From a virus: 34,649 nt of DNA. Both the position numbers and the translations under genes were made by a program. Below are positions 4,302 through 34,649 of this stretch, piece after piece; positions within the stretch are counted from its first letter, which is position 1, and each line of letters begins with the position of its first letter. A model generated the notes under the pieces. The model ran no database searches. It was not told where the DNA came from and was given only the letters and a program-made list of their open reading frames with translations. The stretch is taken from positions 1-34,649 of IMG/VR virus record IMGVR_UViG_3300049855_000279. One strand, given 5' to 3'.

Positions 4302-6265
4302 TTCCACGCCTCCAGGTATTCCAATTCAGCGACAATAGGAACGGTCATATCCACACACGTTTCCATATTATGTTTTAACCGCAAAGCATACCTCATATCT
4401 GGGACTGAGTGGTCTAACTCATCGTGAACAGTAAGATGAGCAACAGCACCAAGATCCTCGTAATTCTTAATGATTGCCATCTTAGTCATATCACCTGCAC
4501 TCCCCTGGATTAGTCGATTGAGCGCTTTATGGGTGAATGCCCTTTCCAGGGGAGCTTCAGGCCAGTGGGTCTGTGCTTTTTCGTATCCTTTTACGGGAAC
4601 ATCATAGCGGCGACTCCAACACTTCTTTTCATTGTCCCATGTGGATTTACGAACCCAAAAATCAAAGTGACATAGTCTGCCTCCAATAGTCCTGATCTTT
4701 CCTGTCCGCTGAACCTGTTTCATACATTTTTCAGCAAGTTGCGCAACATATGGGTTACGCTCGTCGAATTTTTCTAGGATTAGCGCAGCTGCTTCCAACG
4801 TTCTGTTTAAGTCTTCAGCCAGTTTTACTTTGCCCATGCCGTAACTTCGACCGAGGTAAATAGTCTTTGCGTCTTTGCGCACAACCTCAGCTACTTCTGC
4901 AATATATTTATAGAAGTCTGTGGTAGGTTCTTTAACCCATACTTGACGCGCAACATCCGCTCCAACGAACTTACACAAGTAAGCATAATGGACAAGGATT
5001 CTTGGCTCTTGTTGAGAATAATCGAGTTTGGCCCACTTACATCCATCATCTGGAATGAATAGACCTCGTATAAGTGGTGCAAGGTCTGGATCACGCGCAG
5101 GAACTTGCTGAAGATTGGGTTTTGTTGAACTGAAACGTCCACCGCGCACCCCGTCTTCGTCGCCCTTAAGTTGATGAAACTGGCAATGCACTCTTCCGTT
5201 GATGTGATTGCTAAGTATGAGACCCTCGACAAACCTAGAACGAAGACTATCATAGCGTCTAAGCTGTCTGAGACTTTTGAGGAAGGGGTGAGTTGCGTGG
5301 TCTAGGACTGATTGCTCAAACGATGGATTACCCTTATCTGTTCTAGCATACGGTATTTTAAGGCGATCGCATACTACTGCAATGTCTTTGGCAGACCAGG
5401 GGTCGATATCAGTGCCATACGTTTGAATAATTTGGTAGCGGATTTCAGCTTCTTTATTGTTCCACGTAGTTGAGAGAGCTTCTGCTTTTTCGAGATCGAC
5501 TTTGACACCTTTTTTGCGCATTTCCCACACGATTGGGGTAAGTTTGCACTCCATGTCGTAAACCCTCGTGAGGTCTTCAGCTTCAAGCAGCGGGTTTTGT
5601 TTTGCATGAATTAAAAGCGGGTTGATTGCATCGACTTCTGCGTATGGGCCAACGTATTTACTATGGAGTTTCCACATTTCCCCTTTCCCGGTAAGATTAA
5701 AGGCTGTGCATGCTTCTGCGAGCAGTGTTTGAGCTTTTCCAATGCCGAGATACTTTCTTGAAATAGCATCAAGTGAATACCCGGTCTCCGACTCCTCATC
5801 AAGTAGCGCTTCAGCATGGGCGATATCATGGATTCGTCCTTTAACCTCGATTCCTAATGAGTGCAGCCATTCAATATCATATAATGTCTCGCAACCGATC
5901 TTGTCGTTATTCGTAGATGCAAGGATACTTTTGGCAAATGGGATAGCAACTCCACTCCTATCGAGGTTTCCGCCGGCAAGGTGCTGTATTGGAAGATAGA
6001 TTGACCCAACGATTCCCTGCTCATCCATGGCTCCGAGGGAAATTCCAACACAATAACCATCTCGTCTGAATGAACCCGGACCTTTAGATCGAAGATTGGG
6101 ATCGCGTGTTTCTGTGTCGAAGCCAATTTGCTTTGCGTTAGTAGCCAAGTTTGCAAATCGTTGCAAATCGTCGCTATTAGGCGGGCTCCAGGTCGAAGGT
6201 GGTTCGAACAGGATTCCATTGAGATCGTTTCCTTGACCCATTCCCTTTTTGCATCTTGTAGCCAT
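4298..6265 (-). CDS. Family A DNA polymerase with 3'-5' exonuclease
   Basis: A 655-residue replicative polymerase. The exonuclease domain has Exo I GFDTETRDP (D50, E52), Exo II ETLYDIEWL (D130) and Exo III Y208-x3-D212. The polymerase domain has motif A KLDYSQQEPRI (D415), motif B with R463, K467 and Y475-G476, and motif C VHDE (H614, D615, E616). There is no 5' nuclease domain, as in T7 gp5. In motif B the residues at the E. coli Pol I 761-762 positions are Tyr470 and Leu471 instead of Asn-Phe, an uncommon variant. The ATG at 6265 has a CA-rich leader (AATCAAAAACACTATG). The first 137 codons overlap the dCMP deaminase frame. The stop overlaps the nuclease start by four bases. Confidence 0.97.
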   Translation of the reverse strand: MATRCKKGMGQGNDLNGILFEPPSTWSPPNSDDLQRFANLATNAKQIGFDTETRDPNLRSKGPGSFRRDGYCVGISLGAMDEQGIVGSIYLPIQHLAGGNLDRSGVAIPFAKSILASTNNDKIGCETLYDIEWLHSLGIEVKGRIHDIAHAEALLDEESETGYSLDAISRKYLGIGKAQTLLAEACTAFNLTGKGEMWKLHSKYVGPYAEVDAINPLLIHAKQNPLLEAEDLTRVYDMECKLTPIVWEMRKKGVKVDLEKAEALSTTWNNKEAEIRYQIIQTYGTDIDPWSAKDIAVVCDRLKIPYARTDKGNPSFEQSVLDHATHPFLKSLRQLRRYDSLRSRFVEGLILSNHINGRVHCQFHQLKGDEDGVRGGRFSSTKPNLQQVPARDPDLAPLIRGLFIPDDGCKWAKLDYSQQEPRILVHYAYLCKFVGADVARQVWVKEPTTDFYKYIAEVAEVVRKDAKTIYLGRSYGMGKVKLAEDLNRTLEAAALILEKFDERNPYVAQLAEKCMKQVQRTGKIRTIGGRLCHFDFWVRKSTWDNEKKCWSRRYDVPVKGYEKAQTHWPEAPLERAFTHKALNRLIQGSAGDMTKMAIIKNYEDLGAVAHLTVHDELDHSVPDMRYALRLKHNMETCVDMTVPIVAELEYLEAWK

Positions 6266-6660
6266 AGTGTTTTTGATTCGTTATGTGGGTATTCATCTAA
6301 GAAGACAATTCGAGAACAAGCTGTATTGAGGAGCAGTTTGACGCAGTGTATGCACGGGCTAGTCGTAGTATAGCACGTGTGAATCCTATCAACGTCCCTA
6401 CATTGCATAATGGCATTCGCTTCAGCATGAATTGCGACACATTGGTCGAGACCCGTGCCAGAAGACATTCGAAATCCTGGGCAGGGAGTTTGTGCATTGC
6501 AATGCTCAAAACCACGTGGACCACCATTATATCCTGTTGCCAAAACTCGCCGATCTTTATCGACAAGAATACATCCCACTTGCCGTCGCCCACAGGTTCC
6601 GCGAGTAGATGTAATCCGCGCGAGCCGCAGGAAGTAATGATCGATGGATTCACGTTGCAT
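5854..6660 (-). CDS. dCMP deaminase with a long overlap into the polymerase gene
   Basis: Zinc-dependent deaminase that turns dCMP into dUMP for dTMP synthesis. The zinc site is H78-A-E80 (catalytic Glu) and SPCIHC (C103, C106). GTCGRRQVGC at residues 21-30 and the YNGGPRG loop (44-50) are typical of phage dCMP deaminases. The known fold ends near residue 145. The frame stays open to residue 268, and its last 137 codons lie inside the polymerase gene in another frame. Those extra residues match nothing I recognise: they may be a real overprinted tail or the stop may have been lost. The start overlaps the end of the synthase-like gene by 11 bases, so the two are coupled. Confidence 0.9.
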   Translation of the reverse strand: MQRESIDHYFLRLARITSTRGTCGRRQVGCILVDKDRRVLATGYNGGPRGFEHCNAQTPCPGFRMSSGTGLDQCVAIHAEANAIMQCRDVDRIHTCYTTTSPCIHCVKLLLNTACSRIVFLDEYPHNESKTLWLQDAKREWVKETISMESCSNHLRPGARLIATICNDLQTWLLTQSKLASTQKHAIPIFDLKVRVHSDEMVIVLEFPSEPWMSRESLGQSIFQYSTLPAETSIGVELLSHLPKVSLHLRITTRSVARHYMILNGCTH

Positions 6661-7477
6661 TTTGATCCAATTCTGACAAAAAGCCAGTGTTTATTAAACT
6701 CCTATTGTCACGCAGAGCAACAAGGTGTTTCATTAGGGACATCGGGTTATTATAGTCTGATAGAGTTAATGGGTTATATGACCAAGATTGTCCATCCTGT
6801 AGACAGATACGTGCTTTATCTATGTTGTGATCGTAAAGATGCTGAGAACCGGCGTTAAGATACAGAGTTCCTAGTTCTAGCAGATCCATTGCAGGATAGG
6901 TTCTTTCTAAATACTGATTGACTCTGATGCCAACCTCCATGGTAATCATGGTAAAGTTAAAGACATCGTAGACCCAACCAAGCCACAGATCGCTGCTCCG
7001 CATATTAGCAACACAGTTAATCTTACCATTACGAATCAGGAACTGCAGAGTTAACGTGCAAGGAATATCTTTCGATTTCCTTGGACTTTCGCGCCAAATG
7101 GATATAACTGCTTGGCGTGATGGGGGATCCTCAATAAGTGTGTCGATGACGTATCGTAACTGCTCAGTAACCCTCGGCCCATATGCACCCTGGAATCGAT
7201 ATCCGTCATCTGAAAAGTCTGCAATATGCTTCGCGTAGGGCGCAATGGATTCCACGCGGTTGTCGCCCGAAAGAATCCACACAGCTTCGGCAAGAAGAAA
7301 TTTGTATCCCATCTTGCGGTGACTATTCGTGACCACAGGATACCGCATATCCACAATACTTTGATGAGATAAGAGTTCAAGTGTTCCTTTTCCGCGCGGG
7401 CTATGCTTTTCACCCTTTAATAAAAGGTAATTAAGATTAGCATGCCAAGCTTCGTTAGCAGGTAGAGCAAAGTTCAT
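6650..7477 (-). CDS. Thymidylate-synthase-fold enzyme, dCMP hydroxymethylase-like
   Basis: A 275-residue folate-dependent pyrimidine nucleotide C5-methyl or hydroxymethyl transferase. Catalytic C140 sits in DIPCTLTLQF; RQAVISIWR (121-129) and R160-S-S-D163 bind phosphate and base; H213 and Y215 lie in the usual nucleotide-binding block. Spacings match E. coli ThyA (Cys146-Arg166-Asn177 versus C140-R160-D171). ThyA Asn177, which selects dUMP, is Asp171 here. Asp at this place is found in T4 dCMP hydroxymethylase (Asp179) and switches ThyA mutants toward dCMP. The C-terminus also lacks the usual ThyA ending. So 5-hydroxymethyl-dCMP or 5-methyl-dCMP is a better predicted product than dTMP; this is inference from residues. 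It overlaps the kinase gene by 23 bases and the deaminase by 11. Confidence 0.85.
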   Translation of the reverse strand: MNFALPANEAWHANLNYLLLKGEKHSPRGKGTLELLSHQSIVDMRYPVVTNSHRKMGYKFLLAEAVWILSGDNRVESIAPYAKHIADFSDDGYRFQGAYGPRVTEQLRYVIDTLIEDPPSRQAVISIWRESPRKSKDIPCTLTLQFLIRNGKINCVANMRSSDLWLGWVYDVFNFTMITMEVGIRVNQYLERTYPAMDLLELGTLYLNAGSQHLYDHNIDKARICLQDGQSWSYNPLTLSDYNNPMSLMKHLVALRDNRSLINTGFLSELDQNAT

Positions 7478-8021
7478 GGTGTTTGGTTCTAATTAGTGAG
7501 GTGAAATCCCGTAGGTTATTACCCCACTTTGGAATAGAATAATCGATCCAGTTATTATTTAATGCGCGGTAATTCTTATAGAAAGTTTGATAGCCGTTAC
7601 AAACCTTCGTAAAAGAATCATCATCGTATGGGTGATCTGGGTCTTCTTCTTTGCGATGACGTATGACAACATCATCGTGCCAACACAGAATATAGATTCC
7701 ATTCATCGCATTTATCTGATCGGAGAGATGCTTGTGATTGAAATCCTTCACTGTTTCAGGACGAAACACTTGGCCGTAAATCATTTCACTTGGCCAATGA
7801 CGATCGATAATAACCGCGCGATCAATTTCGTTAATGTTTACTTTGGCGTTATCAAGCGTATTTTGCTGATAATCCTGCATAGCGGCGACTAGGGTTCTCG
7901 ATGCAGTGAGATGCCAAAAGACACCATCAAGCTCCTTCGCAAGATATTTACCTAGCGTGGTCTTACCTACGCAATCAGGTCCTTCAAGGATAATTAGTGG
8001 TGCGTGCATATGAGGAATCAT
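7455..8021 (-). CDS. P-loop deoxynucleoside monophosphate kinase (thymidylate kinase-like)
   Basis: The 188-residue protein has Walker A GPDCVGKTT (14-22), a DRHWPSE block (73-79) like the DR(Y/F) motif of thymidylate kinases, and an Arg-rich lid RHRKEED (about 120-126). It should phosphorylate a dNMP with ATP on the route to the triphosphate. In this cluster the substrate could be dTMP or a modified dCMP made by the neighbouring synthase-fold enzyme; the residues I can see do not decide this. The ATG at 8021 directly follows the stop of the pyrophosphohydrolase gene; a second Met (residue 5) is an alternative start. The 3' end overlaps the next gene by 23 bases. Confidence 0.85.
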   Translation of the reverse strand: MIPHMHAPLIILEGPDCVGKTTLGKYLAKELDGVFWHLTASRTLVAAMQDYQQNTLDNAKVNINEIDRAVIIDRHWPSEMIYGQVFRPETVKDFNHKHLSDQINAMNGIYILCWHDDVVIRHRKEEDPDHPYDDDSFTKVCNGYQTFYKNYRALNNNWIDYSIPKWGNNLRDFTSLIRTKHHELCSTC

Positions 8022-8537
8022 TTATTCGATTTGGTTTACGAGATCAGTGAGATACGGCGGAGTCCAACCCCTCGGTTTCGTGATATCCAGGGAGCTGCCG
8101 CGTTTTGACATTGATTGCCGCCCTGTGCGCTCCTTTTTCATGTTCGCTTCTTGAACGCGCTGCCAACCACGCTGGAATGGAAACCCCTGGAGATATGCAG
8201 TTCCGAGAGCAACATAGACCAAATCGATAAGAGCGTCGAATTGCTTCTCAAGGTCATCGTGCTTTACCCCCTCAATAAATTCATCAAGTTCTTCTTGCAA
8301 GAACTTAATGCGGAAGTCAGCCATTTCGGGAGTCATGTTCCTTGGACCTCCGTTGTATGGTAAACCAAACTTCTCGTGAAAGTCCTTAATGTCGATCATA
8401 TATTGATCGGGAGCAATCTTTGGGGCGGCAATGACCTTACAAAGTAAGGCCATCATCTCCACCTGAAGGCCAGCTGCCGACAATCCAGGCTTTGACGCAA
8501 TGCTTTTAATGGCGTTGTCGATTTGATCGTATGTCAT
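8022..8537 (-). CDS. MazG-like all-alpha nucleotide pyrophosphohydrolase
   Basis: From the ATG at 8537 the protein has 171 residues. Acidic motifs QEELDEF (E82, E83, E86) and DALIDLVY (D101, D105), with a following QxANMKK helix, are those of the MazG / PRA-PH / dUTPase-like all-alpha superfamily, which splits NTPs to NMP and pyrophosphate with magnesium. In phages such enzymes remove unwanted dNTPs (for example dCTP or dUTP) or alter host (p)ppGpp pools. Beside a dCMP hydroxymethylase-like gene a dCTPase role, comparable to T4 gp56, is attractive but unproven. The chosen start overlaps the methyltransferase stop by ATGA and is preceded by AAGGAGA, one of the few clear ribosome sites in this arm. 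Confidence 0.82.
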   Translation of the reverse strand: MTYDQIDNAIKSIASKPGLSAAGLQVEMMALLCKVIAAPKIAPDQYMIDIKDFHEKFGLPYNGGPRNMTPEMADFRIKFLQEELDEFIEGVKHDDLEKQFDALIDLVYVALGTAYLQGFPFQRGWQRVQEANMKKERTGRQSMSKRGSSLDITKPRGWTPPYLTDLVNQIE

Positions 8538-9364
8538 CGTTGCATCTCCTTCCACTTTTCACTTGATCCCCATTGGAAATCAAGTTCGCTGAGTGGCTTG
8601 AACTTATTTGATTTACCTTTTTTTAGTTGCCATAGACAATTTCTGGAATACTGTGGATAAAATGGCGCAAACACACAGCTCAGGAAGTTCACATCGTAAT
8701 AAGCACGGAGATCTTCAAATGCTTCGCGATGTCCAGGGGCTAGGTATGGTTCATACTCCCGGATAGATGCAAAGGTGCCGAAGACATCGACGATCTCGAA
8801 ACCACTCTCCTCGATCACAGCGCCGAGTGCCTCATAACGCATCTCATTGACGTGGTTAGCTGCGCATGAAACCACATCCCAGCACGGAGTGGAAATGAAT
8901 GCCATTCCATTTGGCTTAAGGATAGTGCGAATGCCATCAAGCATCTCAAGCATATGTTTTGGCTCAACATGCTCGAGAACTTCGAAGGAAGTGACAAAGT
9001 CTGCAAATTCCATAGGCTGATTGTCCACCCATTTCACGAAGTCTGTTCGTTCGTAGAACTCAACCGGGAACTTGCCTGAGTGGAAGACGTCACGTGTTTC
9101 TTGTGGGATTGGACCATAGTCGATTCCAATATAACGCGCGGGAATAAGTCGACTGGAATACAACGTCTTTCCCATAGGCGTTTCGCGGCCACAACCTACA
9201 TCCACGATAGTAGCTCCTTCGTATGCTTTTCCTTTGGTTAGGATTTTAATAACATGAGACCAACGCATACAATGTGCGATATAGTCTCTGTGAATGAATC
9301 CCCGCTCTTCAGCATTATCGAGAGAGAGAAACGTTGTATCAACTGACTTTCCACGTTCGTTCAT
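8534..9364 (-). CDS. Class I SAM-dependent methyltransferase, substrate unknown
   Basis: A 276-residue Rossmann-type methyltransferase: motif I IVDVGCGRET (53-62), an acidic ribose-binding IDYG (81-84), and the FEVLEHVEP block (127-135) followed by LKPNGMAFISTP (149-160). This is the pattern of small-molecule and carbohydrate O- or N-methyltransferases rather than DNA methyltransferases, since no (D/N/S)PP(Y/F) motif is present. The C-terminal 100 residues are not recognised. It opens the nucleotide-metabolism operon and is coupled to the pyrophosphohydrolase gene by ATGA. Its ATG lies only four bases after a TATACT box, so its transcript may be leaderless. It could act on a modified nucleotide or on the host surface; neither can be shown here. 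Confidence 0.85.
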   Translation of the reverse strand: MNERGKSVDTTFLSLDNAEERGFIHRDYIAHCMRWSHVIKILTKGKAYEGATIVDVGCGRETPMGKTLYSSRLIPARYIGIDYGPIPQETRDVFHSGKFPVEFYERTDFVKWVDNQPMEFADFVTSFEVLEHVEPKHMLEMLDGIRTILKPNGMAFISTPCWDVVSCAANHVNEMRYEALGAVIEESGFEIVDVFGTFASIREYEPYLAPGHREAFEDLRAYYDVNFLSCVFAPFYPQYSRNCLWQLKKGKSNKFKPLSELDFQWGSSEKWKEMQR

Positions 9365-14582: not shown

Positions 14583-14628
14583 GGTATTTAATGCCATTGG
14601 TTAATGGCGGTTATGGAGTTATGGTTGA

Positions 14629-14766
14629 CTAACTGGGAGATAATAGATCCGTAGGTGTTGAGTTACTTCGCAAGCGCTTCTCGCACAGCTTTATACCATG
14701 CTTGAAGTTCTTTTCAAGTTGAAGTCGAACTCGTTCCTGTGATTGTATCTGTAGTTTATTTTCCAT
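14629..14766 (-). CDS. Small ORF enclosed by an inverted repeat (45 aa)
   Basis: ATG at 14,766 to TAG at 14,631-14,629 encodes MENKLQIQSQERVRLQLEKN and 25 more residues, a basic amphipathic helix-former. A 22-base inverted repeat has one arm upstream of the ATG and the other across the last codons and stop, so the transcript could fold end to end and hide the start region. The composition is protein-like but no family is recognised. Confidence 0.45.
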   Translation of the reverse strand: MENKLQIQSQERVRLQLEKNFKHGIKLCEKRLRSNSTPTDLLSPS

Positions 14767-14796
14767 AAAGTGAACTACGGATCTATTAACTCCCGG
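14633..14796. repeat. Imperfect inverted repeat around the 14,629-14,766 ORF
   Basis: Arm one is 14,633-14,654 and arm two 14,775-14,796. Fourteen contiguous base pairs (CTACGGATCTATTA in arm two) are followed by one mismatch, five pairs (CTCCC), one wobble and a final pair. The loop is 120 bases and holds nearly the whole small ORF. Confidence 0.8.
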
Positions 14797-14808
14797 CTAA
14801 TCTTCCAA

Positions 14809-14919
14809 TTACCAGAGTCCTGAAAGCTGAACTGTAAAAGAACCAGATCTAATATCACGCGGATACTTATTGCATAGACGCGTTACTTTAAGAACTGAGT
14901 TGCGAGGAGAATGATTCAT
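14809..14919 (-). CDS. Possible first early ORF (36 aa)
   Basis: ATG at 14,919 to TAA at 14,811-14,809 encodes MNHSPRNSVLKVTRLCNKYP and 16 more residues. An AGCAAGAAGATCTT leader and an AT-rich stretch with TATAGT (minus strand, near 14,955) lie upstream, so it would be the first gene of the leftward operon. It is short and basic, and not recognised. Confidence 0.35.
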   Translation of the reverse strand: MNHSPRNSVLKVTRLCNKYPRDIRSGSFTVQLSGLW

Positions 14920-15095
14920 AAGATCTTCTTGCTCTCAACTTTCCAAACTCTACTATATTTATGGAAAAAGTAAATAAAAATCTTTTTGGTATGTGCAGAA
15001 TTTTTGTAAACAGTTGATCGCAAGTGAGTTACAAACGCATTTATTTTTTGTATCTAGTTTTTGGATACACGGAAATTAGATGGAAATTCAAAAAG

Positions 15096-15144
15096 TATAT
15101 TACTGCATGATCATATAATTATGTAGTAATATTACAGTAATATA
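15096..15144. repeat. AT-rich inverted repeat and palindrome
   Basis: TATATTACTG (15,096-15,105) and CAGTAATATA (15,135-15,144) form a 10-bp inverted repeat. The palindrome GTAATATTAC lies at 15,126-15,135. The surrounding 14,950-15,240 is very AT-rich and has no convincing gene. It fits an easily melted origin or a regulatory region. Confidence 0.55.
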
Positions 15145-15161
15145 AGACACGCATCATTACA

Positions 15162-15215
15162 TATTGATATGATGATATGTGCTGAGGTATCAATGCTTAT
15201 TGATATGATGATATG
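15162..15215. repeat. Iteron-like 18-bp direct repeats, 36-bp spacing
   Basis: TATTGATATGATGATATG occurs at 15,162-15,179 and again at 15,198-15,215, exactly 36 bases apart. Each copy holds GATATGAT-GATATG, and each is followed by GCT and a G-rich step to ATCAA (GGTATCAA, GTGATATATCAA), the inverse of the TTGAT in the unit. Spaced repeats of this type next to AT-rich DNA are typical of initiator- or repressor-binding sites. Confidence 0.6.
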
Positions 15216-15247
15216 AGCTTGGTGATATATCAACGTATCCGTATATA

Positions 15248-15545
15248 ATGGAGGATGATGCTTGGATTACTTTCCAAAGTCCTTTCACATTGAACCATCC
15301 ACCAAGAAACATTTCAGCGTTGAACCAATATCCAAGATTCTTGGTAATCGATACTGAGATTCGATCTCAAGAACCTCGATACTGAGTCTCGATCTCAAGA
15401 ACCTTGGTTCTTTGACCTGGGCCCCAGAGGGGAAAACCTTGATGCAAAGTGTAGAGCACCTCGTCAGCCGACCTCTCGGAGATTTCCATGGAGCTCACGG
15501 ATAGGCCTTTCACACGGCTGCCACATTTCCAAGCAACTGGCATAA
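15248..15545 (+). pseudogene. Possible small ORF broken by a 28-bp tandem duplication
   Basis: The frame from ATG 15,248 (MEDDAWITFQSPFTLNHP) ends at 15,385 inside the second copy of a 28-bp repeat. If one repeat copy is removed the frame runs on to a TAA at 15,543-15,545, about 88 codons in all, and both copies read DTE-x-RSQEP in their respective frames. A TATAAT box (15,244-15,249) overlaps the ATG, so a leaderless or later start would be needed. The second half is Arg/Ser-rich and less protein-like. The opposite strand has open frames here too (15,190-15,312 and 15,367-15,489, 40 codons each), so coding is uncertain. Confidence 0.25.
15348..15403. repeat. Tandem 28-bp duplication
   Basis: Two 28-base units, 15,348-15,375 and 15,376-15,403, both start TCGATACTGAG and end TCGATCTCAAGAACC; only two bases differ. 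The first contains the dyad GAGAT-TCG-ATCTC. Neighbouring dyads are CCAAG-ATT-CTTGG (about 15,332-15,344), AAGAACC-TT-GGTTCTT (about 15,397-15,412) and CTGGG-C-CCCAG (about 15,417-15,427). The density of dyads suggests protein-binding or RNA-folding sites. Confidence 0.75.
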
Positions 15546-15995
15546 ATTATCGTGAATCGACCTCCATACATCAAGCACACTCATCCGCCTAGGTAAGGTC
15601 CAGGGATTGACTTTCGTTATTAAGGAGGTAAATATCTCAGTGTATATTAGATCTGATGCTGAATTACGATTTATTATTGGATGTATTGGATTGATTTTCT
15701 TTAGTTAATATGAGATTTATCAGTCTGTCTTAAAGATCTCTGCTGTTATTGGCAATATTAGATCTAGAGTTTTAAAACCATTGCATAATTATACACAAAA
15801 CAAAAAAGGAAATAATTTGATAATAATCATAATAATTCTAATAGCTCATATACACTATAGACAAATTTGTATTAAGAAGTTATTGACATATTACCAAGTT
15901 AATATACTTAAGTGCATGATCTACGACAAACATAAACCCCTGTCTCCCTCTGATATAAGATCCACACAGGAAAGTGAAAAATGTGCAAAAACACA
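15546..15995. other. AT-rich non-coding stretch before the late genes
   Basis: No convincing gene. A full Shine-Dalgarno AAGGAGGT at 15,622-15,629 precedes a GTG at 15,640 that opens only 22 codons with a hydrophobic end. TTATTG (15,880-15,885) and TATACT (15,903-15,908), 17 bases apart, could be a rightward promoter; a TTGACA lies inside. The 75-codon frame at 15,781 starts with TTG and is low-complexity. Confidence 0.5.
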
Positions 15996-29329: not shown

Positions 29330-31047
29330 ATGAAGTAGCCTATTCTCCAGATGTTCCAGACAATCCCAACTTTGTCTCACGTCCTCCTGACCCAGGTGCC
29401 TTTAGTTTGTATAAGACTATGGGGTTCGATGCTTTATATCATTCTCCAGTTAGCGGTGTATATCGTTCAACGCAACTGATGCTTGAACAGAATCCTTACT
29501 TCAACGTAGATGGCAAGGAATTATCGGTCGATGAGGCTAATTCACAATATGGTCTTAACGGGCAGTTGAAGTTCGATGAGCCAATCAAGGAATCCGCTGC
29601 TCAGTTAATGGTCCGGCGTAAGATTGCTGAGAATGATCGCAATTACGTCATTGGTTCTGGAATGACGACAGGTTTTCGTCAAGCAGCTGGTATAGGGGTG
29701 GGAATGGCTGCCACATTACTTGATCCAGTCAATACCGCTTCAATGTTTATTCCAGTGGTTGGTGAAGCTAGGTTTGCTCGTATGGTGCAACGGTTTGGTG
29801 GATCGGTGATGAAAGCTCGCCTTGCTGCAGGCGCTATCGAGGGCGCTGTAGGCATGGCAATGGTAGAACCGTTTGTCTTACTTCCTGCAATGCAAGAGCA
29901 AGCAAACTATGACATCACAGATTCTGCTACTAACTTAATGTATGGTGCAGGTCTTGGTGCTTTCCTTCATGCTGGATTTGGAGCTATTGGTGATCATATG
30001 AAGCGTCTTAAGCCAAGAGAAGCGGATGCTATTTTCGAAGCTGCTATGAATAACGTCTTGCGTGACGAGCCTGTTACGCACCCAGCCAGGGTTGCGGATT
30101 TCGTAGAACCTGTCGAGACTATAGATCCTAAAGCCTCAACACCTGATCTAACCGGTGCGCATCTTACTGCTGAAGAACCTAGTTATGGGGCGACTCCTAG
30201 AATTGAGCAAACTCTAGACCAAATTCCTCGCCGTGATGCTAAAGGTCGCTTCTTATCCAAAGAAGCTCGTCTTCAGTTACTTCAGGAAAAGATCAACTCT
30301 GATCGTATCAGGACCGAATCCCAGGGTCAAAAAGTTGATATAGACACTCAGAAAGATACACCCCGTTTAACCTCAAATGACCTAAGTGATGCCTCTGTTC
30401 ACGATAAAGTGTATAGTGAAGTGACCAAAGAGGCTGATGATCTTGAGAAACAGATCCTAGGACGTCAACGTATTCCAAAGTCAGAACGTGGAAGCATGCT
30501 AATTCCCGGTGACACAGCCAAAGAGTGGTTTAACAAACAGATCCAGGGGCGTAAATTTATCCATGAAGGAAAAAAGCCTCCAGCCCCCGATAAGATTGAT
30601 AAAACTAAACCCTTCTACACATCTATCGATGAGCGTGGGTTTTTGAACGAAGGTCCTTCAAGAACGTATACAGTTAAGCAACTTGGGAACATTTTTCCAG
30701 ACCCAGAACAGGTTATAGCCATGCTTGACAAGGTCCCTAAAGACGTTCAAATTATCTTAGATAAAATCAACCAAGCAGGGGAAAACATCTCAATCGACAC
30801 TCTGGTTAAACATGGTCTTCCGATAGATCGCATATACGAACTTGCTAGAGACTTAAAGGAAGTTCCCCCCGGCATGTGGATGGTTTCCATAGACAAACCA
30901 GATACCTTGAAAACACAGCTTGACGAAGATGCTATTGAAGCTGCAACTAAACTGCACACACTAATCAAAGAGCAGATTGGCGACCCCGTAAAACGTGAAG
31001 CAGGGGTTAATACTGCTGTTGAATGCATTATTAAGAATCTCATCTAA
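29326..31047 (+). CDS. Internal virion protein, membrane-active segment (gp16-like part)
   Basis: 573 residues. An N-terminal FSLYKTMGFDALYHSPVSGV block precedes a hydrophobic Gly/Ala-rich part (about residues 115-220: GIGVGMAATLLDP, FIPVV, MYGAGLGAFLHAGFGAIG), which may cross a membrane during ejection. The second half is polar, Lys/Glu-rich and probably flexible. No lytic transglycosylase motif is visible, unlike T7 gp16. Together with the next gene it appears to replace the single very long gp16. TAATG joins the two. Confidence 0.75.
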   Translation: MNEVAYSPDVPDNPNFVSRPPDPGAFSLYKTMGFDALYHSPVSGVYRSTQLMLEQNPYFNVDGKELSVDEANSQYGLNGQLKFDEPIKESAAQLMVRRKIAENDRNYVIGSGMTTGFRQAAGIGVGMAATLLDPVNTASMFIPVVGEARFARMVQRFGGSVMKARLAAGAIEGAVGMAMVEPFVLLPAMQEQANYDITDSATNLMYGAGLGAFLHAGFGAIGDHMKRLKPREADAIFEAAMNNVLRDEPVTHPARVADFVEPVETIDPKASTPDLTGAHLTAEEPSYGATPRIEQTLDQIPRRDAKGRFLSKEARLQLLQEKINSDRIRTESQGQKVDIDTQKDTPRLTSNDLSDASVHDKVYSEVTKEADDLEKQILGRQRIPKSERGSMLIPGDTAKEWFNKQIQGRKFIHEGKKPPAPDKIDKTKPFYTSIDERGFLNEGPSRTYTVKQLGNIFPDPEQVIAMLDKVPKDVQIILDKINQAGENISIDTLVKHGLPIDRIYELARDLKEVPPGMWMVSIDKPDTLKTQLDEDAIEAATKLHTLIKEQIGDPVKREAGVNTAVECIIKNLI

Positions 31048-33578
31048 TGAAGCAAGATCTCAAAACCTGCGTTGACATTATCGCCAATGCCTCAGACAAA
31101 GAACTATCTCCTGATCAGGCAAAGTCTTTGATAGACCGGATCATGAATGAGGTCAATCGTCCTACTGAGGCGCTTGATAGTGCAGAAAAACGCGTCCGTG
31201 AACTCGGTCAACAGATTATCGCTGAAGATAAACTTCTATCGGCTATCCAACGTCGCAATGCTTATCTAACAGTTATTGCAGGTAACCGTATTCGCGACTA
31301 TGTTAAGAAATTCCCTACTCCAGGAGAGGGGTTGCTTGCATTTATGAATGGTAGCAATAAACTCCGCTCTGAGGGGCGGTTATCTGTTTACTATCAAGGT
31401 AAGGCGATGCAGAACAAGTATGTTGGTCGTTTGGTTGAACAGCTTCAGAAAGGGGGCCTCATGGATGAGTTCAAGTCTACTCAAATAGATAAACAGATCT
31501 TTCAAGAGCTTTGGGAACTAGGTAAGGAAGGTGGAAAACCAGGTATATCTGGTTCTCCTAAAGCGCAGGGAATTGCCAAGATTGTTCATGACATCAATAT
31601 GGAGATGATCGACCGTGCAAATCGCGCAGGCGCGTTTATCAACAAATTGGAAGGCTACATCTTACGTCAATCACACGATGCAGACGCCATTCGTCGTGCA
31701 GGCGGTATGGGATTCAGCACAGGATCAAATGAAGCTAGCTTCAAAGTCTGGTCTGAATTCATCATGCCTCTTCTAGACGAAAAGACTTTCGATGGAGTAG
31801 ACGATAAGATGGCGTATCTGCGAGGAGCTCACGAAGGTATCATTACAGGAGTTCATGATCGTCCTCAAGCCGACATCGATATTAACTCATCATTCACTAA
31901 CACAGGATCGCTTGCAAAGAAGGTAAGTCAAGGTCGCCAACTCCATTTCAAGGATGCCGATTCAGCTTTTGCATATAACCACAAATTCGGGATGAAGGAG
32001 TTTCGTGAATCGACTCTTCGTCAGATTCAGTTACGAGCAAACTCTACGGCTCTTCTTGAAAACTTCGGACCCAATCCAGAAGCCACATTTGATCGTCTTG
32101 TGCGTGAAATGAAGAGCGACGCAAAGAAATCACCAGACGACGTAAAACATCTAAACTCCCTGAATGATTGGAAATTGGAAGCATCATTCCGTGAACTCAT
32201 GGGATATAATGACGTTTCTACAAATCCGTCTCTTTCGCGTATGATGAACAGCATTCGTGCTGTTCAAAACATGTCGAAACTTGGAGCATCTACTATTACC
32301 GCTTTAGCTGATAAGGGATTCATGCAGAGTGAAATGGGATTCCAGGGGATGAAGTCGCTTGATGTCATTGGTAAGCAGTTGACTGTAGTTGCTGAAGGTC
32401 GTCCAGAAGGCGAACGTAGGTCAATGCTGAATCTCATGGGCGCAGGTCTTGATGGATTCATGGGGAGTGTTATGCATCGTTTCTCAATGCATGATAATCG
32501 TGCAGGAACTCTTTTCAAGATGCAAGCTAAGTTCTTCGACATCAATGGAATGAACTGGTGGAACGATATTCATAAGGGAGCATCTGCTGAACTCATGTCC
32601 GCACATCTAGGCGAGCATGCAAATCTTCCTCATGAGAAACTCCCGCCAGAGCTAACTAAGGTTCTTAACTTATACGGCATTGATAAGCCTATTTGGGATG
32701 CTATACGTTCTACAGTTACGGAGTTAAACGGGCGTCAATACATCACGCCGGACGCTTTGCTAAAACTTGATCGCCAAGTTATTGAAAAACTCATGGCCAA
32801 TAGCGGCGATGCAAAACCCACTGACAACAGTGTGCAACGTATGCGAGACAGGCTCGACACTCAATTGCGAACATATTTCGCCGACCGTGTTGACATAGCT
32901 ATCCCAACCCCTGGCAATGAGGAGCGGACCTATGCTCACTGGAATACACAGGCTGGAACGCCTATCGGTGAAGCAGTGCGCATGATGATGATGTTTAAGC
33001 AAATGCCAATTACTGTTTTCCAGAAAGTAGTTAAGCGTGAAATCTACGGCCATGGGTCTGAAACAATGCTTAAGTGGCTGCAGAATGACCGCTTGGGTAA
33101 CTTTCGTATAATGCAACTTATCGCGATGACTACTATTGGAGGATATGTCTCAGGTATGATTAAAGATACTCTTAAGGGTAGAACGCCTAAGCCGCTCACA
33201 CCCGCCAATATCCAGGATGCTATGTTGCGAGGCGGTGGTCTTGGTATCTACGGTGATTTTCTATTTAACGAATATGATCGCAGTTATAGATCATTCACCA
33301 ATAACGCACTGGGTCCGGTTATCAGTCAGGTAGATTCTATTGCAGATATGGCTAGTAAACTAAAATCAGGTAAAGGCGTGGGGAACGAGGCAGGAAAATT
33401 CGTTACTAATAATATGCCGTTTATCAATTTGTTTTACATTAGACCTGTTTTAGATTACATTATTCTCTGGAACATACAGGAAATGAGTAATCCAGGATCA
33501 CTTCACAGGTCTGAACGAAACCTAAAGCGTAACACAGGTCAAGGATTCTTTATTACACCATCTGAACAAGTAAAATGA
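31047..33578 (+). CDS. Large internal virion protein (gp16-like, C-terminal type)
   Basis: 843 residues, almost entirely helical. RGAHEGIITG, ANSTALLENFGPNPE, SLSRMMNSIRAVQNMSKLG and RMMMMFKQMPITVF-type blocks are typical of the last core protein in podoviruses, which forms part of the DNA ejection channel. A peptidoglycan-cleaving motif is not seen. The C-terminus contains hydrophobic helices (MPFINLFYIRPVLDYIILW). The stop overlaps the fibre start by ATGA. Confidence 0.8.
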   Translation: MKQDLKTCVDIIANASDKELSPDQAKSLIDRIMNEVNRPTEALDSAEKRVRELGQQIIAEDKLLSAIQRRNAYLTVIAGNRIRDYVKKFPTPGEGLLAFMNGSNKLRSEGRLSVYYQGKAMQNKYVGRLVEQLQKGGLMDEFKSTQIDKQIFQELWELGKEGGKPGISGSPKAQGIAKIVHDINMEMIDRANRAGAFINKLEGYILRQSHDADAIRRAGGMGFSTGSNEASFKVWSEFIMPLLDEKTFDGVDDKMAYLRGAHEGIITGVHDRPQADIDINSSFTNTGSLAKKVSQGRQLHFKDADSAFAYNHKFGMKEFRESTLRQIQLRANSTALLENFGPNPEATFDRLVREMKSDAKKSPDDVKHLNSLNDWKLEASFRELMGYNDVSTNPSLSRMMNSIRAVQNMSKLGASTITALADKGFMQSEMGFQGMKSLDVIGKQLTVVAEGRPEGERRSMLNLMGAGLDGFMGSVMHRFSMHDNRAGTLFKMQAKFFDINGMNWWNDIHKGASAELMSAHLGEHANLPHEKLPPELTKVLNLYGIDKPIWDAIRSTVTELNGRQYITPDALLKLDRQVIEKLMANSGDAKPTDNSVQRMRDRLDTQLRTYFADRVDIAIPTPGNEERTYAHWNTQAGTPIGEAVRMMMMFKQMPITVFQKVVKREIYGHGSETMLKWLQNDRLGNFRIMQLIAMTTIGGYVSGMIKDTLKGRTPKPLTPANIQDAMLRGGGLGIYGDFLFNEYDRSYRSFTNNALGPVISQVDSIADMASKLKSGKGVGNEAGKFVTNNMPFINLFYIRPVLDYIILWNIQEMSNPGSLHRSERNLKRNTGQGFFITPSEQVK

Positions 33579-34649
33579 GCCTATCGACATTAACTTCATT
33601 GATTAAAGCTGTTGGCAATGGTGTTACAACAGTTTTCTCATATCCGTACTACTTTTTAGAGGATTCACACTTAGTTGTTATTGAACATAATGTGGATACA
33701 AACGTGGATACTACGTTCACTCTAAACGTAGACTATACTGTAACAGGCGCCGGTAACCCTTCAGGCGGGTCTATTACCTTAACCGCCGCTGCAGCTTCCA
33801 ATAAAACTATAACGATTCTTAGGAAGGTTCCGTTGAACCAGCTTGTTGACTATGTTGTTGACGATAACTTTCCAGCTGAAACTCACGAGCAAGCTATAGA
33901 CAAACTTACTATGACGTGTCAGTATCTTAACGATGTTTTAGAAAGAACCTATCGGTTACCGTTAACTTCTGATGCTATTTTACCATCAGCTATCTCTTCA
34001 TTGGTTGCCTTGGTTGCAGCTGAAGTTGAAGCTGTTGCGGTTGCGGTTGGCATAAATGGTAATCTTACATACCTAGGTATTGGTGCGCTTACTCATAATA
34101 CTACGGGGGAGAGTTGCACCGCTGTTGGCTATGGAGCGTTAGAGCAAAACACGTCGGCTTCAGATAATACTGCTGTTGGGTCACTTGCTCTTAATAAGAA
34201 TACAACCGGCACTGGTAATACAGCTGTCGGTGAAGCAGCCGCAACCGCGATTACCACCGGAAATAGTAATGTTGCTATTGGCTATCGCGCGATGTTAGCG
34301 GCTACTATTCCTATCGGTAGTGTAGCTGTTGGCACTGAAGCCATGCTAGCACTTACTACAGGCAATAGCAATGTAGCTGTTGGCTATCGCTCTGCTTTAG
34401 CCTTAACTACAGGTAAGGAAAATGTAGCTGTTGGCCAGCAAGCTTTAGCTGGAGCAACCACAGGTGACGGACAGGTAGCTATCGGTTACAAAGCCCTGTA
34501 TACTTCAAACGGCACAGCTAATACCGCTGTTGGCTATGGAGCGTTAGAGCAAAACACGTCGGCTTCAGATAATACTGCTGTTGGGTCACTTGCTCTTAAT
34601 AAGAATACAACCGGCACTGGTAATACAGCTGTCGGTGAAGCAGCCGCAA
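33575..34649 (+). CDS. Tail fibre, N-terminal part with YadA-head-like repeats
   Basis: The frame is open to the right edge (358 codons seen). Residues 1-130 follow the T7 gp17 N-terminal domain that attaches to the tail: VTTVFSYPYYFLEDSHLVVI, LNVDYTVTG, ITILRKVPLNQLVDYV and a HEQAIDKL block. A short Ala/Val-rich helix joins it to repeats of about 14 residues with the core NTAVG(Y/S/E)xAL, each a turn of a trimeric left-handed beta-roll like the YadA head (about residue 178 onward). It binds the host surface. Repeats are near-identical at DNA level and one 127-base segment recurs exactly. Confidence 0.88.
   Translation, partial: MSLSTLTSLIKAVGNGVTTVFSYPYYFLEDSHLVVIEHNVDTNVDTTFTLNVDYTVTGAGNPSGGSITLTAAAASNKTITILRKVPLNQLVDYVVDDNFPAETHEQAIDKLTMTCQYLNDVLERTYRLPLTSDAILPSAISSLVALVAAEVEAVAVAVGINGNLTYLGIGALTHNTTGESCTAVGYGALEQNTSASDNTAVGSLALNKNTTGTGNTAVGEAAATAITTGNSNVAIGYRAMLAATIPIGSVAVGTEAMLALTTGNSNVAVGYRSALALTTGKENVAVGQQALAGATTGDGQVAIGYKALYTSNGTANTAVGYGALEQNTSASDNTAVGSLALNKNTTGTGNTAVGEAAA
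34118..34649 (+). repeat. Exact 127-bp direct repeat ending at the window edge
   Basis: Bases 34,118-34,244 and 34,523-34,649 are identical over 127 bases, 405 bases (135 codons) apart; the base before the repeat differs (C versus T). The second copy ends at the last base of the window. The repeat lies within the fibre's beta-roll region. Confidence 0.95.

Follow-up and report, generated by a model that had tools for sequence, protein, structure and literature searches.

The last 127 bases of IMG/VR record IMGVR_UViG_3300049855_000279 are an exact copy of a segment lying further inside the same record, and this raises the question of whether such an end belongs to the genome of the phage or to the way in which its sequence was assembled. 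The window, that is, the whole stretch of DNA analysed here, corresponds to the entire virus record of 34,649 bp. The record very probably represents a podovirus-like phage whose contig, assembled from short metagenome reads, broke by k-mer re-entry in a repeat array of the fibre gene, with about 5.2–5.4 kb missing. In all likelihood, this is an ordinary assembly break, not a new biological feature.

The terminal repeat and the fibre array

The repeat search of the window gives a direct repeat, D1, whose two 127-nt copies are 100% identical at a spacing of 405 (Table 1), in agreement with the initial annotation, which had described the end of the window as an exact 127-base copy of an internal segment (127/127 bases, 0 mismatches). 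The base located 5' of the copies differs, C at 34117 and T at 34522; the match is limited at the left by this true difference and at the right by the end of the record alone. With the last 127 bases removed, no exact repeat in the window exceeds 19 nt, which excludes a chance origin of D1, and the corresponding value within the fibre is 15 nt, with 82/127 as the best 127-nt self-match of the window's fibre. The two copies keep the reading frame at a distance of 135 codons, and the open reading frame that contains them runs without a stop from 33575 to the end of the record. A circular or terminally redundant record was considered and rejected, the right-end repeat being placed internally at 34118 and no repeat being common to both ends.

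Table 1. Features of the window related to its two ends and to the terminal repeat
Feature	Positions	Strand	Evidence or remark
UvrD/REP-type helicase gene, cut by the left end of the record, 216 N-terminal residues	1..649	-	PF00580, E 1.7e-19
Virion structural protein adjoining the fibre upstream	31047..33578	+	PHROG 684, E 1.4e-166; synteny anchor
Incomplete tail-fibre gene (5' part), 358 codons running without a stop to the record end	33575..34649	+	PHROG 1640
First D1 copy, putative entry k-mer	34118..34244	+	start coincides with that of a 17-residue unit (motif at residue 182)
405-bp loop of eight array units, seven of 17 residues and one of 16	34118..34522	+	motif starts; 51-bp family D2
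Second D1 copy, reaching the last base of the record, putative assembly overlap	34523..34649	+	repeat search, end check, toy graph

The assignment of the open reading frame to a tail fibre is based on its residues 1–116, which match the PHROG 1640 tail protein (E 4.4e-34), and a weak match to the T7 tail-fibre N-terminal domain (Pfam Phage_T7_tail, E 0.018) falls below the cut-off. From residue 182 onwards the fibre consists of 17-residue (51-bp) units, detected as family D2 in the repeat search, with motif starts at residues 182, 199, 216, 233, 250, 267, 284, 301, 317, 334, and 351 (n = 11, spacing 16–17) and a twelfth at residue 156, off the spacing; both D1 copies begin exactly at a boundary between units. 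The presence of 51-bp motif units in a fibre gene places the window among the 17-residue N-T-A-V-G fibre arrays, which were matched in 66 IMG/VR loci (from 72 pattern matches) and, in a search that matched 203 records, in isolates such as Pelagibacter phage HTVC111P, Roseobacter phage CRP-1, and Prochlorococcus phage P-SSM2. The fibre arrays of HTVC111P, CRP-1, Venkman, and P-SSM2 are similar to that of the window in motif and organization, at 41–47% identity to its array, whereas their copies have diverged, the longest exact repeat in the fetched stretches being 20–24 nt versus 127 in the window. The predicted fold of the array (monomer model from 10 sequences, pLDDT 81) has short strands about every 17 residues. 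With the array as query, the sequence search of solved structures gave 0 matches at E ≤ 0.1, and the fold search gave 125 matches up to E 10, of which 50 were listed and none reached E ≤ 0.001. We presume that the window's array resembles YadA-type head repeats.

Probable re-entry of a k-mer at the end of the contig

In the proposed mechanism, the assembler would enter the repeat array of the tail-fibre gene, pass through the 405-bp loop, and, upon meeting the 127-mer of the first copy again, would stop, leaving an overlap of one k-mer (k = 127) as the last bases of the contig. This stopping rule was reproduced in a toy de Bruijn graph built with k = 127 on random DNA with forced differences, in which a path stops on re-entering a used vertex; the model tells what the rule yields, not that the actual assembler obeyed it. 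True identities of 127–404 nt resulted in a terminal 127-nt repeat at a spacing of 405 in 6/6 cases, and identities below 127 in no such end (2/2). The six identities tried between 127 and 404 all give the same end, so the last 127 bases would measure k rather than the length of the repeat, and the true repeat may be of any length from 127 bases upward. Repeat geometry, truncated genes, synteny, and the end that the stopping rule yields were observed or computed here; the assembler and k = 127 of the window's record we infer.

The value of k is in published use, since a metagenome study citing the JGI workflow gives, in the text available, metaSPAdes with -k 33,55,77,99,127 (PMC11584781). In the accessible sections of the COBRA paper, the vast majority of simulated breaks due to repeats led to metaSPAdes contigs with maxK ends (PMC10914622). 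As in a maxK overlap, the last k bases of the window recur exactly (127/127) and the match starts at a true divergence. The initial annotation had interpreted the position as a contig end where the graph re-entered a repeat in the fibre gene, and the geometry of the repeat, the toy graph, two microvirus contigs described below (L144 and L151), the published k, and COBRA all speak for that interpretation.

The opposite reading, in which a biological repeat is truly 127 bases long and the phage DNA stops at this point in nature, for example at a processed terminus, accounts for a match that finishes on the very last base of the record, but it is extremely improbable and was rejected: the end interrupts an open reading frame, no matching repeat is present at the left end of the record, the number 127 coincides with a k in published use (PMC11584781, in the portion cited above), and two relatives, L002 and MW202510.1, continue through fibre, small genes, and helicases.

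The frequency of such ends was evaluated in contigs of the same database. In a microvirus comparison set (best 80 of 233 IMG/VR contigs), 50/80 contigs end in an exact match of 18 nt or more, with lengths of 127 nt in four, 144 nt in two, and scattered values of 20–126 nt in the others; this scatter weakens the argument from the number 127 alone, which is one length among several. End repeats other than a clean end-to-start match were found in 23 of these best 80 of 233 contigs, and they measure 127 nt only in L144 and L151, which run past their own start and, after one mismatch, continue with exactly 127 identical bases up to the contig end, that is, the form seen in the window. When 94 contig ends from the window and 79 IMG/VR loci were compared, an exact match of at least 18 nt elsewhere in the DNA compared occurred only at the right end of the window, and none occurred at 122 ends from the 80 loci that carry capsid-gene relatives. 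The lasso-type end is therefore rare in these sets, no other being present among 215 contig ends when exact repeats of at least 18 nt in the DNA compared are considered. Arrays are present at 12/78 contig ends versus 220/2047 interior tiles (10.7%) of the same loci and 1/240 random tiles of other contigs; the enrichment at contig ends is slight and too weak to use. To look for a contig that shares the 127-mer and continues beyond it, IMG/VR viral contigs were searched with a 30-base pattern from D1; this gave 0 matches, in a search that may omit the window's own and very near records.

Genes probably missing beyond the end of the record

Each end of the record cuts a gene, the UvrD-like helicase at the left and the fibre at the right, and two relatives point to what would connect them. 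L002, an IMG/VR contig of 12,171 bp whose structural protein is 63% identical to the product of 31047..33578, carries in this order the structural protein, the fibre, three ORFs, a SNF2-type helicase, the UvrD-like helicase, and a primase-like gene; its fibre has 823 residues, with no 17-residue array seen in the translation, and its UvrD-like helicase homologue has 522 residues compared with 216 in the window. MW202510.1 (Podoviridae sp. ct3Et533) is a complete, circular genome of 41,714 bp that joins the fibre position to the helicase, and its structural protein shares 42% identity with that of the window. The window follows the genome plan of MW202510.1, with collinear gene order and divergent left and right arms: 25/34 of the window ORFs tested match, collinearly, a stretch of that genome (L081, 35,823 of 41,714 bases), at identities of 23–70%. 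The two differ at the fibre position, where MW202510.1 has an annotated rhamnogalacturonan lyase; the fibre ORF of the window has no match in the same stretch.

The initial annotation had also proposed that gene content is missing beyond the end, and the connection of the fibre position with the helicase in both relatives sustains this proposal. By comparison of gene order, the missing part most likely comprises the remainder of the fibre, a few small genes, the gene for the SNF2-type helicase, and the 3' portion of that for the UvrD-like helicase, all of which would lie between base 34649 and base 1. The distance from the start of the fibre to the start of the helicase is 7,106 bp in L002; in MW202510.1, measured from the gene that occupies the fibre position, the helicase starts after 6,875 bp. 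The window carries 1,724 bp of this distance, hence the estimate of the missing length given above and a genome near 40 kb, which presume that the stretch is as long as in L002 and MW202510.1. Roughly an eighth of the genome is thus probably absent from the record. The search of genome contigs for capsid-protein relatives confirmed 0/21 pattern matches, and provides no host or prophage lead.

Other features of the window concern its gene arms and its replication and nucleotide genes. The gap between the two divergent arms (14597–15781) is a candidate control or origin region and contains, besides a 33-nt inverted repeat (14622–14654 / 14775–14807, 82%), two pairs of close direct repeats (15153–15219 and 15348–15403). 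The primase-like protein encoded at 646–2166 on the minus strand matches Pfam AEP-TOTE (E 1.1e-10), an archaeo-eukaryotic primase domain that takes its name from TOTE conflict systems. A nucleotide cluster on the minus strand (5854–9364) includes dCMP deaminase-like (PF00383) and thymidylate-synthase-like (PF00303) genes, together with further ORFs that are kinase-like (weak, below the cut-off), PRA-PH-like, or contain a methyltransferase domain. The gene of MW202510.1 at the place of the thymidylate-synthase-like gene is annotated as pyrimidine hmase, which makes modified bases in the phage DNA possible. The deaminase ORF (5854–6660, minus strand) extends about 140 codons past its domain match, and 412 bp of it are shared, in a different frame, with the DNA polymerase ORF, compared with 17 bp in MW202510.1; this possibly reflects a frameshift or an unusual overlap.

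Possible duplication within the array and its known counterparts

If the contig did stop on k-mer re-entry, at least some members of the population probably carry eight 51-bp units that were truly duplicated in frame, and this is the best explanation of the loop. Its plausibility derives from the near-identical blocks in metagenome arrays and from the fibre duplications of phage EfV12-phi1. Among the former, L034 (2312–2855) contains two 127-nt stretches 417 bp apart that match at 121/127 positions, a like-sized block duplication in a similar fibre array of another phage, and matches of 114/127 were found in L018 at a lag of 51 and in the metagenome array L028 at a lag of 867; the 127-nt matches of L038 and L024, by our reading, lie outside the 17-residue array and are left out of the array duplications, and the L066 stretch, which contained stops in the frame translated, is likewise not used. 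Regarding the latter, EfV12-phi1 evolved in-frame 1.8-kb tandem duplications in its fibre gene, as documented in the available text by coverage, PCR, and MinION reads (PMC6365445).

A somewhat unlikely alternative, also within the assembly reading, is that the loop joins strain variants or chimeric reads, so that no single genome contains the 127 bases twice; homologous 51-bp units would let differently ordered reads or strains share k-mers and be threaded into one path. Such a mixture is favoured by the junction at a unit boundary with common motif letters, where template switching could occur, and by the fetched stretches of nine isolate records with arrays (out of 203 records matched), which contain no exact repeat over 32 nt and whose best 127-nt self-match is 54–74%. 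By the same comparison, an exact 127-base copy would be a young event. Nevertheless, block duplications of similar or smaller size exist in arrays, as in L034 and L018, and the in-frame tandem duplications gained by the EfV12-phi1 fibre gene (PMC6365445, in the part of that report referred to above) also argue against a mixture. That the fibre contains more than two near-identical 405-bp blocks, in a higher-order repeat of which the contig would cover the first block together with the beginning of the second, is compatible with the graph reading and recalls the zero to four duplications held by EfV12-phi1 reads spanning the fibre gene (PMC6365445, same portion), but it is improbable: the second block is visible for 127 bases only, in the six array loci searched for repeats every listed copy differs from its reference, and across the 66 array loci exact repeats reach at most 76 nt. 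This maximum says little in itself, since contigs built from short reads under-represent exact repeats longer than k. The presence of more copies of a 405-bp unit in the fibre, as suggested in the initial annotation, is a possibility, although the basic unit is 51 bp and the stretches of the nine isolate records showed no exact duplication of this length; the varying copy number of the in-frame fibre duplications in EfV12-phi1 offers a precedent for it in the text consulted (PMC6365445).

Returning to the favoured reading of a real duplication, a phage population in which freshly duplicated blocks of eight units vary in number, and in which recombination between 51-bp units would vary the length of the fibre, is an unlikely extension and, if true, would be the natural counterpart of the laboratory duplications of EfV12-phi1. 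In practical terms, the fibre, the protein most used to guess the host of a phage, is incomplete in this record, and an exact match of length k between the terminus and an internal site provides a simple flag for such records, which an end-to-end repeat check alone would miss, the copy being internal.

In comparison with known systems, the end of the window resembles the maxK ends described in the accessible sections of the COBRA paper, where a contig halts at a branch point, its maxK end is shared with another place, as are the 127 bases of the window, and within-genome repeats are named as one cause (PMC10914622). It differs in that the bases are shared with a site inside the contig itself, in a lasso form, whereas in COBRA that site is the end of another contig, and in that the COBRA simulations were performed at k = 99 and the overlap here is 127 (PMC10914622, same sections). 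The likeness to EfV12-phi1 would reside in the in-frame tandem duplication within a fibre gene, although in the corresponding part of that study the unit is 1.8 kb, arose in laboratory co-evolution, and is backed by reads (PMC6365445), whereas in the window a 405-bp unit with one partial second copy is read from the contig sequence alone.
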